DNA of 64,000 nt from Spirochaetota bacterium. GTDB lineage: Bacteria; Spirochaetota; Spirochaetia; Treponematales; Treponemataceae. Positions 23,400 through 32,952 of this stretch are shown one piece after another (positions within the stretch are counted from its first letter, which is position 1; each line of letters starts with the position of its first letter). The position numbers and the translations under genes are program-made. Location of the stretch: NCBI GenBank assembly GCA_016285185.1, contig JAEEQG010000096.1:1-64000 (forward strand). The letters are read 5' to 3'. A model generated the notes under the pieces. It saw nothing but the letters and a program-made list of their open reading frames with translations, ran no database searches and was not told the origin of the DNA.

Positions 23400-23454
23400 C
23401 TATTGGCACAATGTTATTTATGAGTACGGTTATTCCGAAAAACGGAACTCATCC

Positions 23455-23544
23455 CTACTTATTCTTATGCCGATTACGTCTAAGCTTCTTCTTCCGCTTA
23501 TGTGTAGCGATTTTCTGCTTTTTTCTTTTTCTACCGCAAGGCAC
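23455..23544 (-). CDS. 29-residue basic protein resembling AURKAIP1/COX24 (mS38-type) ribosomal proteins
   Basis: A tiny minus-strand gene. GTG at 23542-23544, TAG at 23455-23457, AAGGAG at 23552-23557 seven bases before the start. The product has the core KRKKQKIATHKRKKKLRRNR, about half Lys and Arg, which matches the AURKAIP1/COX24 pattern KRxxKxxxHKxxKRxRRxRH. That family includes mitochondrial ribosomal protein mS38 and small bacterial relatives near the 30S decoding site. A strong promoter stands upstream and a terminator downstream, so it is its own transcription unit. Expected role: small structural ribosomal protein; this rests on pattern recognition. Confidence 0.72.
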   Translation of the reverse strand: MPCGRKRKKQKIATHKRKKKLRRNRHKNK

Positions 23545-23573
23545 TAGGGCACTCCTTAATCAAAACTGTTGCT

Positions 23574-23602
23574 ATTATGAACCAATTATTTTTTCAAGTC
23601 AA
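23574..23602 (-). promoter_or_regulatory. Promoter of the 29-codon basic gene
   Basis: Minus strand TTGACT (23597-23602), 17 bases, CATAAT (23574-23579), about 30 bases upstream of the GTG start. Such a good promoter supports the reality of the small gene. It diverges from comF. Confidence 0.65.
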
Positions 23603-23650
23603 GTGGTTTTGAAAAGTACAAAAAATGAATTTCAAAACTATGTATATAGT

Positions 23651-24403
23651 ATGAAAATAATAAATTTAATTTTGCGCGGGTGCCTTGCGGTGCGCTATTA
23701 CGCAGGTATAGGTACTCTTTATTTGTGCGGTGAAAAGAACTGCGTTGTGTGTGGTGGTATTACGGATTTGCTTCCGGTGTGCGCCGGCTGTTTTCAAAAA
23801 ACAATTGCGAACATAAGGCTTAACGCAAAACGCTGTTTGGTTTGCGGACGAGTACTTGTTTCCGAAAAATCCGTGTGCGTTTTGTGTCGGTCACGTCCGT
23901 CCATCGGAAACCTTAATACGGTTTTTCCGCTGTACAATTATTATTTGTGGGCACGGGATTTGCTTTTTATGTGGAAAATGCAGAACAATCGCTACTTCTC
24001 TTTTGTTTTTGCGCGGCAGATTCTTGTTGTTCTGCAAAATCGGTTTGACGGTATTCCGGTTGTCCCTGTACCGCCCCGACCGTCCAAAATAAAAAACAGC
24101 GGCTGGGATCAGATTAAGGATATTAGTGACATATTAAAGTACAGGTACAAGATGAACGTACTGGATCTTTTGCGACGCTGTGATAACAGCGAGCAAAAAA
24201 AACTGGGCAGAACCGAGCGGCTGGGCAGGGCCGAAAAACGCTATGTATGGAATCAGGCATTTAAAGGACACATTCCGCGGTCAGTTGTTCTACTGGACGA
24301 CATAATGACGACCGGCGCAACCCTTAATGAGTGTGCCGTTGCCCTAAAAGCCGCCGGAGTGGAAACGGTCCACGCAGTTACATTGTTCTCTGTATCAGAT
24401 TAA
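23651..24403 (+). CDS. ComF family phosphoribosyltransferase-like protein
   Basis: A protein of about 250 residues. An N-terminal double zinc-finger region (CVVCGGITDLLPVCAGC and CLVCGRVLVSEKSVCVLC) precedes a type I phosphoribosyltransferase domain with VVPVPPRPSKIKNSGWDQ and the PRPP loop VVLLDDIMTTGATLNECA. ComF proteins assist DNA uptake in competent bacteria, but many species carry one without known competence. The open frame extends upstream to 23411, but that part is the antisense of the small basic gene; the ATG at 23651 fits the family N-terminus. There is no obvious ribosome site. Confidence 0.85.
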   Translation: MKIINLILRGCLAVRYYAGIGTLYLCGEKNCVVCGGITDLLPVCAGCFQKTIANIRLNAKRCLVCGRVLVSEKSVCVLCRSRPSIGNLNTVFPLYNYYLWARDLLFMWKMQNNRYFSFVFARQILVVLQNRFDGIPVVPVPPRPSKIKNSGWDQIKDISDILKYRYKMNVLDLLRRCDNSEQKKLGRTERLGRAEKRYVWNQAFKGHIPRSVVLLDDIMTTGATLNECAVALKAAGVETVHAVTLFSVSD

Positions 24404-24679
24404 GTAACAAATCTCAAACACCCGACAGCTCTCACGTCCTTGCGAAGCACGAAGCACAAAAGCGATCTTTATAATCTAATTTTATTTTAAAACACGTACT
24501 GTTTGAATCTTAAAAACAAGCTTTTTACCATTCTTCCGTGCCCGTATCAGCGGTATGGTGAAAGTAAGCCGGAAGTTACCCAAATAGGCTGTTGGAAAGA
24601 TAAAATACGTCGGGTGGAAAGAGATTTTAAACCGAAAATTTTAACAACAACGTTTATTCAGTCTGGTGCAGACGTGAAC
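24404..24679. other. Intergenic stretch with no recognisable gene
   Basis: I find no start codon with a ribosome site followed by convincing coding sequence, and no hairpin terminator or RNA gene. A plus-strand open frame from 24503 runs on into the antisense of brnA, but its product resembles nothing I know. This is the left flank of the accessory island. Confidence 0.5.
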
Positions 24680-25021
24680 TTAATGGAATGCATACTGTCT
24701 GAGAACGGCGTTCATCTTGGTCTGATAGCCTTTTCCTTGGCTTTTGAACCATTCAAGAACATCGGTATCAATCCGCATAGAAATTTCCGTTTTATCGGGC
24801 TTGTTCTGGTTGGGATGAAGCTTTGCAAAAAGCTCTGGTTTTACATCTTTGAGCGGACGAAATTCAGCAAGCTCTTCTTTTGTTTGCACAGGACAATCGG
24901 GGTCAACAGCTGTTTGAACAGATTTTGATTTTGCTGATGCCATACGGATGGTTTGAATTTCGTTTTCGGTAAGCGGTGTGTTTATAACTTCTTCAAGCGT
25001 CATAGTTACGATAGTACTCAT
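24680..25021 (-). CDS. brnA: BrnA family antitoxin
   Basis: A 113-residue protein. The C-terminal half is the BrnA signature: KPDKTEISMRIDTDVLEWFK followed by SQGKGYQTKMNAVLRQY, a ribbon-helix-helix DNA-binding fold. The N-terminal part would wrap and neutralise BrnT. BrnA proteins repress their own operon. The ATG at 25019-25021 lies inside the end of brnT with AGGAGG seven bases before it, the classic toxin-antitoxin overlap. The gene looks intact, whereas its partner carries a frameshift. Confidence 0.87.
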   Translation of the reverse strand: MSTIVTMTLEEVINTPLTENEIQTIRMASAKSKSVQTAVDPDCPVQTKEELAEFRPLKDVKPELFAKLHPNQNKPDKTEISMRIDTDVLEWFKSQGKGYQTKMNAVLRQYAFH

Positions 25022-25276
25022 TGATTTCCTCCTGTTCTGCAAGCCGGGCAGAAATAATTCTGATACAATCTTTACCTCGTACTGTAAAGACAACAAACAA
25101 AACATCTTCAACCATGCCGATTACATTCCATCTGTCTTCTTCCAAAGTTGAATGCAGGGCATCATATTTTATGACTGCGTGGGAATCGTAAAAACTTTAG
25201 AAGCCATTTTGAAAGTGATTCCGTTATGCTTTTCGATATTGAGTTTTTCTTTATCGGAATCCCATTCAAAAGTCAT
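24993..25276 (-). pseudogene. brnT: BrnT family toxin, frameshifted
   Basis: Starts at ATG 25274-25276 with AAGGGG upstream: MTFEWDSDKEKLNIEKHNGI, the usual BrnT N-terminus. After about 29 codons frame 0 reaches a stop (36 residues in all). Moving to another frame at the T-run 25190-25194 recovers the rest: YDSHAVIKYDALHSTLEEDR, then WNVIGMVEDVLFVVFTVRG and CIRIISARLAEQEEINEYYR, ending at 24993. Adding one T to the run of five rejoins both parts as KVFYDSHAV. BrnT is a RelE-fold ribonuclease. The gene is either inactivated, phase-variable at the homopolymer, or affected by a sequencing error. Confidence 0.82.
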
Positions 25277-25296
25277 ACGTTATACCCCTTGATTTT

Positions 25297-25325
25297 AGTA
25301 TACATCGTTTGATGTATGTCGGCAA
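25297..25325 (-). promoter_or_regulatory. brnTA promoter with palindromic operator
   Basis: Minus strand TTGCCG (25320-25325), 17 bases, TATACT (25297-25302). Between and over the -10 lies a perfect inverted repeat, ATACATC-AAAC-GATGTAT (25300-25317). BrnA's ribbon-helix-helix fold binds such short palindromes, so this is the likely autoregulatory operator. Confidence 0.6.
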
Positions 25326-25437
25326 GTTGAAATATGAATACAATGCTTTGTGCCTTGTAACAAAAGCTGTTGATACCGAAGGAGTTTTCTTTGAATGCAC
25401 ATACAACCGCGACGGTTTGTTAACAACTGAAAAATGA
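25312..25437 (+). pseudogene. Fragment of an Rhs/YD-repeat protein
   Basis: A plus-strand reading frame of 41 codons. It contains KYEYNALCLVTKAVDTEG followed by VFFECTYNRDGLLTTEK, which follows the YD-repeat rhythm YxYDxxGxLxxxxDxxGxxxxYxYDxxGxL over one and a half repeats. Rhs and related polymorphic toxins have dozens of these repeats, so this is a scrap of a lost gene. It begins inside the brnTA promoter and ends at TGA 25435-25437; nothing recognisable follows it. Gene type is inferred from the repeat pattern alone. Confidence 0.5.
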
Positions 25438-25596
25438 CACAGATTTTTCAATGTCTGCATTATATCTGTCACAATAATAAAATCAACCGCTTTATCTTTG
25501 ACACATTTAATAACACATACAGTATTATTATTCAGTGAGCGGGACGGAGGTCTCTCTCTCATGGATACATAAATTAAAACAGCCGGACTGTTGTTG
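25438..25596. other. Intergenic stretch without a supported gene
   Basis: No convincing coding sequence. A minus-strand open frame (25266-25562) crosses the Rhs scrap and the brnTA promoter but has no family resemblance and no ribosome site. The sequence is probably the decayed right flank of the island. Confidence 0.45.
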
Positions 25597-25650
25597 CGAG
25601 ATTTATCCTTATGGATAAATCTCGTTGACCATTGGTTTTAACCAATGGTC
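25597..25650. repeat. Two adjacent perfect hairpin palindromes
   Basis: Palindrome A: CGAGATTTATCC (25597-25608) pairs exactly with 25613-25624 around TTAT. Palindrome B: GACCATTGGTT (25627-25637) pairs exactly with 25640-25650 around TT. Only two bases separate them, and neither has a T-run. They lie about 20 bases upstream of the rimP-nusA promoter. They could be protein sites, a bidirectional terminator without U-tract, or remnants of a mobile element end. Confidence 0.75.
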
Positions 25651-25668
25651 GGGATTAGCCGGGAGAGG

Positions 25669-25697
25669 TTGACACATATGGTTTTTTCTGATAATAT
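25669..25697 (+). promoter_or_regulatory. Promoter of the rimP-nusA-infB operon
   Basis: TTGACA (25669-25674), 17 bases, TAATAT (25692-25697). Transcription would start near 25704, before the leader terminator and about 75 bases upstream of rimP. Confidence 0.68.
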
Positions 25698-25720
25698 ATC
25701 GCTAATTATTGGTTGTCTTT

Positions 25721-25752
25721 AAAAAAGAGTCGTCCGAACGGCTCTTTTTTTT
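25721..25752 (+). terminator. Intrinsic terminator inside the rimP-nusA leader (attenuator candidate)
   Basis: AGAGTCGT (25726-25733) pairs with ACGGCTCT (25738-25745, one G-T pair) across the loop CCGA, flanked by six A before and eight T after. It stands between the operon promoter and the rimP ribosome site, so every transcript must read through it. A comparable leader terminator controlled by NusA is, as I recall, known in Bacillus subtilis. Confidence 0.85.
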
Positions 25753-25780
25753 ATAGTTTTTATATCCAAAAGGAGTTGAT

Positions 25781-26245
25781 TTGGAATATAAATCATTTGT
25801 CGAAATTCCGTACTATACTGACTGCGAGCCTGTCGTTACAGGTCTGGGCTATTCACTGGTTGAACTGCGGATTTTCAGAACAAACGGTACGGTTCAGGTG
25901 AAAATTGCAATTGCGCATAAAGATCCTGCTGTTACGGCAGGTATCGGTATTGATGACTGTGCAAAAGTTCACCGTCTTTTGCTGCCGAGACTGGAAGCTC
26001 TGCTCCAGTCACAGGATGTGTATATGGAAGTTACATCTCCTGGTTTGGAACGTCATATAAAAAATGCAGCCGAATTTGTGTTTTTTATCGGAAAGTACGT
26101 AAAAGTTTACGATGTTTCTGTTTCTGACTGGGTTTCAGGCAGGATAACATCTGCAGACGAAAAATCTTTAACCTTAAAAACTGAAGATACAGAACGTAGT
26201 ATTCTGTATGAACAAATATCAAAAGCTAAGTTAATCAATTCATAG
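25781..26245 (+). CDS. rimP: Ribosome maturation factor RimP
   Basis: A 154-residue protein with the RimP features LGYSLVELRIFRTNGTVQVK, IGIDDCAKVHRLLLPRLE and MEVTSPGLERHIKNAAEF, then the C-terminal SH3-like domain. It assists 30S assembly. The start is TTG at 25781, five bases after AGGAG (25771-25775); no better ATG exists. It is the first gene of the nusA-infB operon, behind the leader terminator. Confidence 0.92.
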   Translation: MEYKSFVEIPYYTDCEPVVTGLGYSLVELRIFRTNGTVQVKIAIAHKDPAVTAGIGIDDCAKVHRLLLPRLEALLQSQDVYMEVTSPGLERHIKNAAEFVFFIGKYVKVYDVSVSDWVSGRITSADEKSLTLKTEDTERSILYEQISKAKLINS

Positions 26246-26257
26246 GGAGGCAGTGTT

Positions 26258-27706
26258 ATGTCATCACAAATGGCAGAAGCTATCCAGCAACTGACACAGG
26301 ATAAAGGAATTTCAGAAGATCTGATTAAAAAAATGATTGAGAATGCTCTTGTGGCAGCATATAAGAAAAAGTTTGGAACAAGTGAGAATGCGGTTGTCAA
26401 ATTTGCGGACGACTTGTCAGATGTATCCATTTATTCACGAAAAGTAATTGTTGACGGTGTTTATGACCCTGTCGTAGAAATCGAACTTGAAGACGCCCTT
26501 AAACTTTCTGAGGATTGTGAAATTGGTGATGAAATTGATATTCTTGTAGATCCTAAGGAATTTGACCGTGTTTCTGTTCAAACCGGAAAACAAACGGCTC
26601 ACCAGGGCTTGCGGGATATTCAGAAAGACAGTCTTTACGTTGAGTTTAAGGACAAAGTCGGTGAGATTATTACCGGAACATACCAGCGTGAAAGAAACGG
26701 AAACATTTATGTCGACGTTGGAAGGGTAGAAGCTGTTCTTCCTAAAAAATTCCAGTCACCAAGAGAAGTTTACAGTAAAAATGACAGAATCAGAGCCCTT
26801 GTAAAAGAAATAAGAAAGACAAATACAGGATTGCAACTGGTTCTCACCAGAACAGATCCTGATTTTGTAAGAAAGATTCTTGAACTGGAAGTTCCCGAGA
26901 TTTATGACAAGACAATCGAAATTATTAAAATTGTCCGTGAACCGGGATACAGAACAAAGATTGCGGTTTCTTCTTCAAAAGAAGAGGTCGATCCTGTTGG
27001 AGCATGCGTTGGTCAAAAAGGTGTCCGTATTCAGAATGTTATTCATGAACTTGAGGGCGAAAAAATTGATGTTCTTAAGTACGATCCGGATCCGGCGGTA
27101 TTTATACGCAACGCACTTTCACCGGCAGAGGTTTCGGATGTAATAATTCTTGACAAGACAAAGAGACAGGCTTTGGCTGTAGTAAACGAAACACAGTTTT
27201 CGCTTGCAATCGGCAAGCAGGGCTTGAACGTTCGTCTTGCAAACAAGCTTGCAGACTGGAACATCGACGTCAAGACCGAAGACCAGTGCGAAGAAATCGA
27301 AGCACTTTCCGCCGAAGCGAGAAAGGCTGCTGATGAGTTGTTCAGTAACGAAGAAATTGAAATCAACAAGATTGAAGATTTGCCGAACGTTGATATAAAT
27401 GTTGCAGAAATCCTTAAGGCACACGGCATAGAAAAAATCGAAGATTATCTTGATGCTTATGATAAGGGCGAGATAGCAAAGATTGAAGGTCTTTCGCAGG
27501 AAAAAATCGAAGAACTTCAGTCTATTATTGAATCAGTCGTTGAAATTGTTGAGGAACAGCCTCAGGAAGAAGAATATGACCAGTCTTCCGAAGAAGAAGA
27601 GGAATCATATGTATGTCCTGAATGTGGAAGTCCTATTACAATAGACATGACAACCTGCCCGAACTGCGGTGTTGAGTTGAGTTTTGAATATGAGGATGAA
27701 GAATAG
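26258..27706 (+). CDS. nusA: Transcription factor NusA with C-terminal zinc ribbon
   Basis: A 482-residue NusA. Order of domains: N-terminal RNA-polymerase-binding region (1-125), S1 (about 130-200), and two KH domains (about 225-345; GACVGQKGVRIQNVIHEL and LAIGKQGLNVRLANKLADW). A helix-hairpin-helix type repeat follows (about 365-425; LPNVDINVAEILKAHGIEKI), then a very acidic linker. The last 30 residues form a CPECG...CPNCG four-cysteine zinc ribbon, which is not part of standard NusA. NusA promotes pausing, termination and antitermination. It lies 12 bases after rimP with GGGAGG before the ATG. Confidence 0.94.
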   Translation: MSSQMAEAIQQLTQDKGISEDLIKKMIENALVAAYKKKFGTSENAVVKFADDLSDVSIYSRKVIVDGVYDPVVEIELEDALKLSEDCEIGDEIDILVDPKEFDRVSVQTGKQTAHQGLRDIQKDSLYVEFKDKVGEIITGTYQRERNGNIYVDVGRVEAVLPKKFQSPREVYSKNDRIRALVKEIRKTNTGLQLVLTRTDPDFVRKILELEVPEIYDKTIEIIKIVREPGYRTKIAVSSSKEEVDPVGACVGQKGVRIQNVIHELEGEKIDVLKYDPDPAVFIRNALSPAEVSDVIILDKTKRQALAVVNETQFSLAIGKQGLNVRLANKLADWNIDVKTEDQCEEIEALSAEARKAADELFSNEEIEINKIEDLPNVDINVAEILKAHGIEKIEDYLDAYDKGEIAKIEGLSQEKIEELQSIIESVVEIVEEQPQEEEYDQSSEEEEESYVCPECGSPITIDMTTCPNCGVELSFEYEDEE

Positions 27707-27708
27707 GA

Positions 27709-30222
27709 ATGGCAGAAGAAGTAGAAAAAAAACCAAATTTTGTTCTTAATAAAAAGCAGCCTGCAGCCGCTGCGCCCGAGAAAACTGAGGCAAAACCGGC
27801 TGAAAATGCTGCCCCAAAAAAGAAGGTTGTCGTAGTAAAGAAAAAGCCTCCATTCCCGAACAAACAGAATACGACTGCTCCGTCCGGAAAACCTCATGTT
27901 GCAGAAAAGAGCGGAACACCTGAAAAGAAAAGACCTGTTTCATCAATCGAACTTAGCCCGCCAAGACCTAATATCAAGGTCGGTAACCTTGCGGACAAGC
28001 CTAAAAGACCTGCTGAAGGCCGAAGAGAGGGCGGTGTCGGTCCGAGAAGAGACGGCGGCAGTTTTACCGGTACTCAGGCCAGAGAGGGATATCATAACAG
28101 AAATTCACAGTCTTCCGGCGGAAACAACCGAGGTGGGTTTGGCGGTAAATCTGATGGTGACAGACCTCGTTCATTCGGTGGCAATTTCCAACAGGGGGCA
28201 AACCGTGGTGGTCTTCGTCCCAGACCTGCAGGACAGGGTGGCTTTGGTCAGCGTACCGGCGGTTTTGGCGGTGGAATGGCAGCGCCTCCTGTTGAAGAAA
28301 ATAAAAAAGCCAGCTCAAAGAAAACCTTTAAGGGTAAAAAACAGGTATATTCACGAAAGGATAAGGAAGATTTTGATACAGTAGACAAGCTTCTTAACCA
28401 AAAGAAAAAGCAGGTCGCAAAGACAAACGCTGTTCCTAAAGAAATAGAAATAATGGATACCATCTCTGTTTCGGAACTTGCTAAAAAGATGAATCTTAAG
28501 GCTTCCGAAATCATTTCCAAGTTGATGTCGATGGGAATGATGGTTTCTATAACTCAGACAATTGATGCTGATACGGCAACTCTTGTAGCTTCTGAATTTG
28601 ACTGCGAAGTAAAGATTATCAGTCTTTATGATGAAACGGTTATCAAGAGTGAGGAAGACCGCGAAGAAGATTTAAAGCCGCGTCCTCCTGTAGTTACTAT
28701 TATGGGTCATGTTGACCACGGAAAGACCAAAACTCTTGATGCAATCCGCAGTGCAAACGTAGCCGCTTCTGAATTTGGCGGAATTACACAGCATATCGGT
28801 GCGTATATGGTTGAGACTCCTAAAGGCCGGATTACTTTCCTTGATACTCCTGGACACGAGGCCTTTACAATGATGCGTGCCCGTGGTGCAAAGGTAACGG
28901 ATATTGTTGTTCTTGTTGTTGCAGCCGATGATGGTGTTATGCCGCAGACTATAGAAGCGATAAACCACGCTAAGGATGCAAATGTTCCTATAATCGTTGC
29001 GGTAAACAAGATAGACAAGCCTGAGGCAAATCCCGACAGAGTAAAAACACAGCTTTCAGAACTGGGACTTACACCGGAAGAATGGGGCGGTCAGACACAG
29101 TATGTGGCTATCAGTGCTTTAAAAAAAGAAGGTATAGATGATCTTCTTGATGCAATCCTGTTACAGGCTGAAATCCTTGAACTAAAGGCAAACTATACAT
29201 GTCGTGCCGAAGGTAAGGTTATTGAATCACGCATTGACCACGGACGTGGTGTTGTTTGTACTGTTATAGTCGAACGCGGAACATTGCGTGTTGGAGATCC
29301 TTTTGTCGGCGGAATATATTCCGGTCACGTAAAAGCAATCTTTAATGATAGAGGCGTTAAAATTCCTGAAGCAACGCCGAGTACCCCTGTAGAAATTATG
29401 GGCTTTGAGGGAATGCCTAATGCGGGTGATCCTTTCCAGGTAACCGAGTCAGAACGCGATGCGCGCGATATTTCTGCAAAACGTCAGGAACTTAAGCGCT
29501 TTGAAGATTCCAAAGCTGTTAAGAAAGTTAACCTTGACAACCTGTATGATACAATCGAACAGGGTGAGGTTATGGAACTCAAGGTTATCATCAAGGCCGA
29601 CGTTCAGGGTTCTGCGGAAGCGCTCAAGCAGTCGCTCGAAAAACTTTCTACAAAAGACATACGGCTTGTCGTTATTCACTCTTCTGCAGGTGCAATCAAC
29701 GAGAGCGATGTTGTACTCGCAGCCGCTGACTCAAATGCAATTATCATCGGATTTAACGTTCGTCCTACACCAAAGGCAAAGCTGCTTGCAGAGCAGGAAA
29801 AAGTAGATATCCGCAAATATAACATAATCTATAAGGCTGTTGAAGAAATAACCGCCGCTATGGAAGGTATGCTGGCTCCTGATGAAAAAGAAGAAGTTAT
29901 CGGTACTGTTGAAGTCCGCGATACATTCAAAGTTCCTAAAGTCGGAGTTATTGCAGGTTGTTATGTACTTACCGGAAACGTAAAACGTTCCTGCACTGCA
30001 AATGTTATCCGTGACGGTATTGTAATAGCTTCTTCGTTAAAGATAACTTCTCTCAAACGTTTTAAGGATGATGTAAAAGAAGTTGCATCAGGCTTTGAAT
30101 GCGGTATGGGACTTGAAAACTGGCAGGATATTCAGGTCGGTGATCAGTTCGAAATTATCGAAATGGTAAAGGTTGCAAGAAAGCTGAACGATTCCGCTCC
30201 AAAAACGGAAGAAAAGCAATAG
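27709..30222 (+). CDS. infB: Translation initiation factor IF-2
   Basis: An 837-residue IF-2. The N-terminal 200 residues are low-complexity: a Pro/Ala/Lys part and then a Gly/Arg/Phe-rich part (for example [19 protein letters not shown]). The IF2-N domain follows ([20 protein letters not shown]), then the GTPase domain with GHVDHGKT (G1), DTPGHEAF (G3) and NKID (G4), and domains II-IV ending at 837. It places initiator tRNA on the 30S subunit. It starts two bases after nusA stops. The RGG/FGG-type tail could bind RNA or be disordered. Confidence 0.96.
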
Positions 30223-30246: not shown

Positions 30247-30642
30247 ATGTCTGAATACAGACTTGTCCGGCTTGGAGAACAGATTAGGAACGAAATTTCC
30301 GGTATGATTCTGAAGCAACAGATAAAGGATCCTCGTGTATCAACGTTTTTGAACGTAAACAGGGTTGAAGTTTCCCGTGATTTGAGCTACGCAAAGGTTT
30401 ATGTTTCAAGCTTTATGGACGACAAAAAGACTGAAAAAGGCGTTAAAGGACTCGAAAGTGCTGCCGGTTTTATTCAGTCGACACTGAGCCGCAAACTTAC
30501 TTTGCGGCAGTTCCCCAAGCTTCAGTTTGTTTGTGACTCAAGTATTAAAGAGGGTTTTGAAATGGTCCGCAAACTTGCTGAAATAACCGAAGCAGATGCG
30601 GCTGTCGCTGCAGCTTCTGAGAATAATGAAGGCCAAGAATAA
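30247..30642 (+). CDS. rbfA: Ribosome-binding factor A
   Basis: A 131-residue protein with the RbfA fold: RLGEQIRNEISGMILKQQIK, DPRVSTFLNVNRVEVSRDLS and YAKVYVSSFMDD. The C-terminal tail is short and Ala/Glu-rich. It helps 16S rRNA 5' end maturation and cold adaptation. It follows infB by 24 bases, and its end overlaps the start of truB. Confidence 0.93.
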   Translation: MSEYRLVRLGEQIRNEISGMILKQQIKDPRVSTFLNVNRVEVSRDLSYAKVYVSSFMDDKKTEKGVKGLESAAGFIQSTLSRKLTLRQFPKLQFVCDSSIKEGFEMVRKLAEITEADAAVAAASENNEGQE

Positions 30643-32904: not shown

Positions 32905-32913
32905 ATAGGGAAA

Positions 32914-32952
32914 GGAAATTGTCTTGGTCGTAAAGACAGTTTCCTTTTTTTT
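32914..32952 (+). terminator. Rho-independent terminator after rpsO
   Basis: GGAAATTGTCTT (32914-32925) pairs with AAGACAGTTTCC (32933-32944) with a single G-T pair, followed by eight T. A strong terminator between rpsO and pnp. Confidence 0.88.

Follow-up and report, generated by a model that had tools for sequence, protein, structure and literature searches.

Promoter and terminator hairpin upstream of the rimP operon

The window, i.e. the whole 64,000-nucleotide stretch of DNA analysed here, carries rimP, nusA, infB and rbfA in succession on the plus strand, preceded by a promoter and a hairpin with a T tract. The features are the following.

23411..24403, plus strand: comF-like gene (PF00156); the ComF call rests on the phosphoribosyltransferase domain
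25669..25697, plus strand: promoter of the rimP-nusA-infB operon (direct sequence reading)
25704..25720, plus strand: predicted 5' end of the leader RNA, ahead of the hairpin (alignment, co-occurrence table)
25721..25752, plus strand: intrinsic terminator, the putative attenuator (sequence, folding, conservation)
25770..25775, plus strand: rimP ribosome-binding site AAGGAG, outside the hairpin (sequence)
25781..26245, plus strand: rimP, TTG start (PF02576, E 4.6e-11; PF17384)
26258..27706, plus strand: nusA, encoding NusA_N, S1 and KH domains and a C-terminal zinc ribbon (Pfam)
27709..30222, plus strand: infB, encoding IF-2 (PF11987 and others)
30247..30642, plus strand: rbfA, the next gene of the operon (PF02033)

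The identities of RimP, NusA, IF-2 and RbfA, and of BrnA encoded upstream, were upheld by Pfam. The nusA gene follows rimP on the same strand after a gap of 12 nt, which is the operon arrangement of a NusA-autoregulated leader. The zinc ribbon of NusA (PF13248, residues 451-474, window positions 27608-27679) lies after the KH and helix-hairpin-helix regions.

Direct reading of the sequence bears out a promoter followed by a terminator ahead of the rimP ribosome-binding site, as had been proposed in the original prediction. The -35 hexamer TTGACA (25669-25674) and the -10 hexamer TAATAT (25692-25697) are separated by a spacer of 17 nt, and a TG ahead of the second hexamer forms an extended -10 element (TG-A-TAATAT). 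The predicted transcript starts at about 25704; the terminator begins approximately 24 nt past this position and a short leader RNA reaching to the end of the T tract is predicted to comprise approximately 49 nt. Of the stem of eight bases that had been described, the hairpin, its CCGA loop (25734-25737) and the eight T residues (25745-25752) stand, whereas the core stem, GAGTCGT (25727-25733) pairing with ACGGCTC (25738-25744), has seven pairs including one G-T pair, the eighth being one flanking A-T pair. A-T pairs lengthen the core stem, which is flanked by an A tract, and 28 nt lie between the end of the T tract at 25752 and the rimP start codon at 25781.

The segment 25710-25760 folds with -14.3 kcal/mol (z -3.16), a value equalled by one of 200 shuffled sequences. 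A strict terminator score returned four hairpins in the 64 kb on both strands compared to 0, 0, 1, 0, 1 and 2 in six Markov controls, and only the hairpin in the rimP leader sits between a promoter match and the first gene of the rimP operon. Another of the four is the intrinsic terminator between rpsO and pnp (32912-32946), whose sequence and presence vary freely among relatives. A wider consensus scan of the window gave nine terminator-like sites against 8.4 expected, which is weak if taken alone. Simple scanning thus fails to separate the terminator from the background, and the real evidence for it comes from its conservation. Scanning the whole window with Rfam yielded no family at the gathering threshold, including riboswitches, T-boxes and ribosomal-protein leaders; permissive matches within 25600-25850 all scored below the gathering scores of their own families and were taken as chance.

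Conservation and sequence constraint within the order

Of 98 genomes of the order, 92 yielded a NusA, and for 90 of these the upstream DNA was taken. One locus (L050) is cut by a contig end and another (L054) was read by hand, leaving 88 loci for the pattern count. A hairpin followed by a T tract precedes rimP in 85 of these 88 loci; with L054 added, 86 of the 89 loci that could be read have it, so that the search for the leader hairpin in relatives suggested in the original prediction recovered the complete promoter-hairpin-T unit nearly throughout. The three exceptions are L080, with an imperfect hairpin approximately 0.37 kb upstream, L070, with a degenerate leader, and L088, with none; in the latter two the unit is lost or nearly so and nusA is kept. 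L088 belongs to the one reduced genome of its family (G026, 1.1 Mb), in which the conserved leader is lost and no TTGACA was seen upstream, rimP and nusA both being retained.

Ahead of the hairpin, 8 or more of the 12 promoter positions are matched in all 85 leaders, with a median distance of 62 nt from the -35 element to the stem. The automatic promoter choice was wrong at a few loci (e.g. L004-L007, in which TTGACA at about -62 was missed). A fixed search for the distance placed TTGA or TTGC 57-68 nt ahead of the stem in 49 of 50 leaders of the Treponemataceae (standard deviation 2.3 nt). The distance from the hairpin to the start codon ranges in this family from 15 to 93 nt (standard deviation 19). 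The fixed spacing between promoter and hairpin and the free spacing between hairpin and gene place the terminator in the leader of the operon itself. The matched hairpin-plus-T motif ends at most 20 nt ahead of the start codon in 27 of 83 loci, leaving no room there for a downstream promoter.

The stem is constrained in its sequence as well as in its shape. Its pairs are intact in 95.8% of the alignment cells within the Treponemataceae, and none of 500 shuffles reached its covariation score. The exact hairpin sequence occurs once per genome and always at rimP in all 25 genomes with a match among 59 searched, the reversed pattern giving no match in these 59 genomes. A covariance model of the Treponemataceae leader matches at the rimP leader alone in 22 of 37 genomes; in the genome of the window the leader scores E 0.0014 against E 0.94 for the next-best place. 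In one genome (G069) the palindrome was counted on both strands in both searches, corresponding to one place only. A regulon away from rimP was considered and rejected, as neither the exact pattern nor the covariance model finds the leader elsewhere. In ten genomes having both terminators, the mean identity of the stem arm is 0.92 for rimP and 0.34 for the rpsO-pnp terminator, showing that the rimP stem is conserved beyond ordinary terminators, as described for rimP-leaders. The comparison of sequences shows that the promoter-hairpin unit is not a product of chance, being real, conserved, sequence-constrained and unique to the rimP operon. The near-fixed stem suggests that the sequence of the hairpin, besides its shape, is read by something.

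These data bear on a model according to which the hairpin is a fixed attenuator or a 5' RNA-stability hairpin acting without a regulator, resulting either in a constant fraction of readthrough or in a stable short RNA with its own function. The predicted short RNA is well defined, as this model would have it. The near-invariant stem, though, exceeds the needs of a fixed terminator and the element is restricted to the nusA operon, and we regard this explanation as highly improbable.

The upstream neighbourhood and comF

A hairpin at this position might also be the terminator of an upstream gene, ancestrally comF, insulating rimP. The position of the promoter would then be incidental and rimP transcription would mostly leak past the hairpin. 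The statement in the original prediction that no gene ends here that needs stopping holds for the window, but its relatives usually do have such a gene: tblastn matched a comF of the same orientation ahead of the leader in 40 of 85 loci, often ending a few nucleotides from the -35 element. Against comF termination, the promoter match precedes the hairpin at a near-fixed distance in every one of the 85 leaders, the hairpin is kept in 15 of 85 loci in which the nearest long ORF, by rough ORF calls, is on the minus strand and comF was not found, and in the window it stands 1.3 kb from comF. Moreover, no such sequence conservation is seen in the rpsO-pnp terminator of these genomes. We therefore consider the hairpin quite unlikely to be a comF terminator, and the placement of the terminator within the operon's own leader is sustained by its tight distance to the promoter, its variable distance to the gene and its retention where no plus-strand gene ends upstream.

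Within the window, comF, which in relatives usually adjoins the leader on its upstream side, is displaced by approximately 1.27 kb from the rimP promoter. The interval 24404-25668 harbours brnTA, which indeed reads the other way as had been stated; brnA on the minus strand has an intact frame, whereas brnT is split over two frames. The segment ends in two adjoining perfect palindromes (within 25590-25660, z -8.85), and part of this palindromic stretch is repeated on three further contigs of the same genome (C117, C37 and C61). In the closest relative (L002) the brnTA segment is missing and comF ends approximately 40 nt ahead of the -35 element, suggesting that the segment was inserted in the genome of the window. 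Its absence from L002 and the palindrome copies on other contigs make it look mobile or repeat-associated.

Putative antiterminators and leader-start motifs

Leaders of the sister family f3 contain an upstream GAUUCU that is complementary to the AGAGUC in the terminator arm. When the f3 RNA was folded up to this arm, the mean z was -2.53 and the arm was paired in all 12 loci; the same fold reached -3.63 in f2 (one locus), -0.97 in f4 (12 loci) and -0.28 in f5 (10 loci). The hand-read locus L054 of f4 has the GAUUCU/AGAGUC arrangement as in f3, and 25 further leaders from mixed families gave a mean z of -1.4, seven of them reaching -2 and eight showing the GAUUCU arrangement by eye. In a 20-locus alignment of f2, f3 and f4, from which the f4 rows L043, L051, L052, L053 and L062 were omitted, the antiterminator pairs hold in 90% of the cells; covariation in this alignment was not above shuffles (245 of 500 for cells paired, 453 of 500 for the score). 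The sister families are thus predicted to carry an antiterminator on the grounds of complementarity and folding energy. In the 50 loci of the Treponemataceae (f1) the folding energy does not support an antiterminator (mean z 0.01; 0.04 in a repeat), and the leader of the window (L001) does not show the significant antiterminator fold that a terminator-antiterminator switch would have (z 0.62).

The Treponemataceae leaders show another pair of complementary motifs. GAAC is found 25-29 nt ahead of the stem in 38 of 50 leaders, and it co-occurs strictly with GUUC in the hairpin: 38 leaders have both, 12 have neither and none is discordant, the Fisher value for this co-occurrence ignoring relatedness. 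In 29 of the 38 leaders GAAC lies 5-8 nt past the -10 hexamer and thus at the predicted transcript start, the other nine differing by the automatic promoter choice. In 28 of 33 testable leaders, GAAC can pair with GUUC at a cost no greater than 1 kcal/mol. The window and L002 have neither GAAC nor GUUC, and both are without the GAACA...ATCC element that leaders of the family usually have. Other families break the rule, having GUUC without GAAC in 14 of 35 loci, and no compensatory GAAC/GUUC changes were seen among the leaders compared; shared divergence is therefore a possible source of the agreement. The motif AGAACA may be similar to a mycobacterial NusA-binding RNA; a literature search on the motif gave nothing, and this likeness was set aside.

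Taken together, these motifs would be compatible with the spirochaete rimP leader being a small sequence-read switch, built on GAUUCU/AGAGUC in the sister families and on GAAC/GUUC in the Treponemataceae, with NusA or another factor binding to the start of the leader choosing the state. In the sister families GAUUCU, a copy of the 3' arm of the terminator, would block the latter by pairing with AGAGUC. We put this forward as a tentative model that is less likely to be true than not.

The predicted f3 antiterminator would also give a signal other than NusA a way in, the attenuator then answering to RimP, another ribosome-related protein, NusG, transcription-translation coupling or an antiterminator/terminator switch. 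RimP has been raised as a hypothesis for the regulator by Naville and Gautheret (PMC2965389). The Treponemataceae leaders, in which no antiterminator stands out by energy, and the lack of a match to any Rfam riboswitch, T-box or ribosomal-protein leader at the gathering threshold argue against such a signal, which we judge to be rather unlikely.

Distribution in the phylum and relation to known rimP leaders

Outside the order, a hairpin with a T tract is present at most 420 nt upstream in 34 of 48 further rimP loci from other families (50 less two repeats), and 18 of 24 families are represented by one or more members among these 34 loci. These matches are looser than those within the order, and the wider-survey figure of 39 of 59 is rough, as L164 and L204 are too close to a contig end and the wrong hairpin was picked at L148. 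The family f7, with small genomes of approximately 1 Mb, has the hairpin, and TTGACA lies approximately 130 nt upstream of its RimP domain; no hairpin match came from f8, f14, f21, f28, f30 and f35 or from the g58 loci of f18. Hence, the promoter-hairpin unit is order-wide and, from the sequences compared, probably phylum-wide. Several loci of the Neomarinimicrobiota have a hairpin upstream of nusA, which is probably another form of the rimP-leader. Upstream of nusA, L193-L199, L202 and L203 from this group share a conserved hairpin of their own, AAGTGGGTT...AACCCACTT, with a T-rich tail.

Naville and Gautheret (2010) described the rimP-leader as the most ubiquitous attenuator and NusA as the best candidate for its regulator (PMC2965389). 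The element of the window has in common with it a promoter-proximal intrinsic terminator with an unusually conserved stem in the leader of rimP-nusA-infB, all three genes having Pfam calls in the window, and its distance of 28 nt to the gene falls within the 4-130 nt given for the short hairpin and T stretch of the rimP-leader (PMC2965389). It differs in the stem, which is GAGUCGU/ACGGCUC in the window and GGGc(...)gCCC in the published motif (PMC2965389), some spirochaete loci such as L056 having a GGGCCG/CGGCCC stem. It differs also from several Gammaproteobacteria, which have a second, tandem terminator further upstream (PMC2965389); none was seen in the window. An antiterminator is predicted in some sister-family leaders, whereas the text of that paper reports none for the rimP-leader in general (PMC2965389). 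We conclude that the element works like a rimP-leader and classify it as a variant thereof. It had been thought to be an independent spirochaete case; being order-wide and belonging with the widespread published rimP-leader (PMC2965389), it is not an independent spirochaete invention. The main text of PMC2965389 does not name spirochaetes, a paper on 3' ends in Borrelia treats NusA in general, its main text mentioning neither rimP nor infB (PMC10319736), and a description of a spirochaete rimP leader was not found in the papers searched. The Rfam family RF01770 (rimP) gave three weak hits and exceeded the cut-off in none of the 98 genomes, leaving the window unmatched, while the E. coli control was detected.

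Related leaders have been characterised in other bacteria. A review describes the autoregulation of NusA in B. subtilis to which the original prediction had pointed: NusA stimulates intrinsic termination in the 5' leader and in this way controls transcription into the operon (PMC12288461). The B. subtilis leader comprises approximately 180 nt (PMC2965389), compared to approximately 49 nt to the end of the T tract in the window; both have a leader terminator ahead of the nusA operon, a dependence on NusA being proposed for the window by analogy. In the S. agalactiae operon gbs0413-gbs0418, the same operon as in the window, a terminator lies 31 nt past a mapped start, two RNAs, one short and one long, share a single start, and NusA feedback was proposed (PMC4448216). 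That leader was mapped by RNA-seq (PMC4448216), whereas the leader of the window is predicted from sequence. The E. coli operon metY-rimP-nusA-infB has two terminators upstream of rimP (PMC6511841), and NusA feedback is reported for it.

A model for control of the operon

We favour, with moderate confidence, a model according to which the hairpin is an operon-specific attenuator of rimP-nusA-infB subject to feedback by NusA, in analogy to the systems above. In this model 25669-25752 would form one regulatory unit comprising the operon's own promoter and an intrinsic terminator ahead of rimP. A share of RNA polymerase would stop at the hairpin resulting in the short leader RNA, and the remaining polymerase would read on into rimP-nusA-infB-rbfA. 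By analogy to B. subtilis, NusA would raise termination at the hairpin so that excess NusA lowers expression of its own operon, whereas shortage of NusA would let polymerase past. Feedback by NusA is most likely the best mechanism for the attenuator of the window.

Our data suggest that a control element of the nusA operon has been kept across a deep phylum, and it would provide a compact and conserved leader for NusA feedback outside the Firmicutes and Gammaproteobacteria. The antiterminator predicted in the sister families would offer an explanation of how a leader of this kind could be tuned. If the switch proposed for the spirochaete leaders were true, an essential operon would have a minimal antitermination switch within approximately 50-70 nt of its start.
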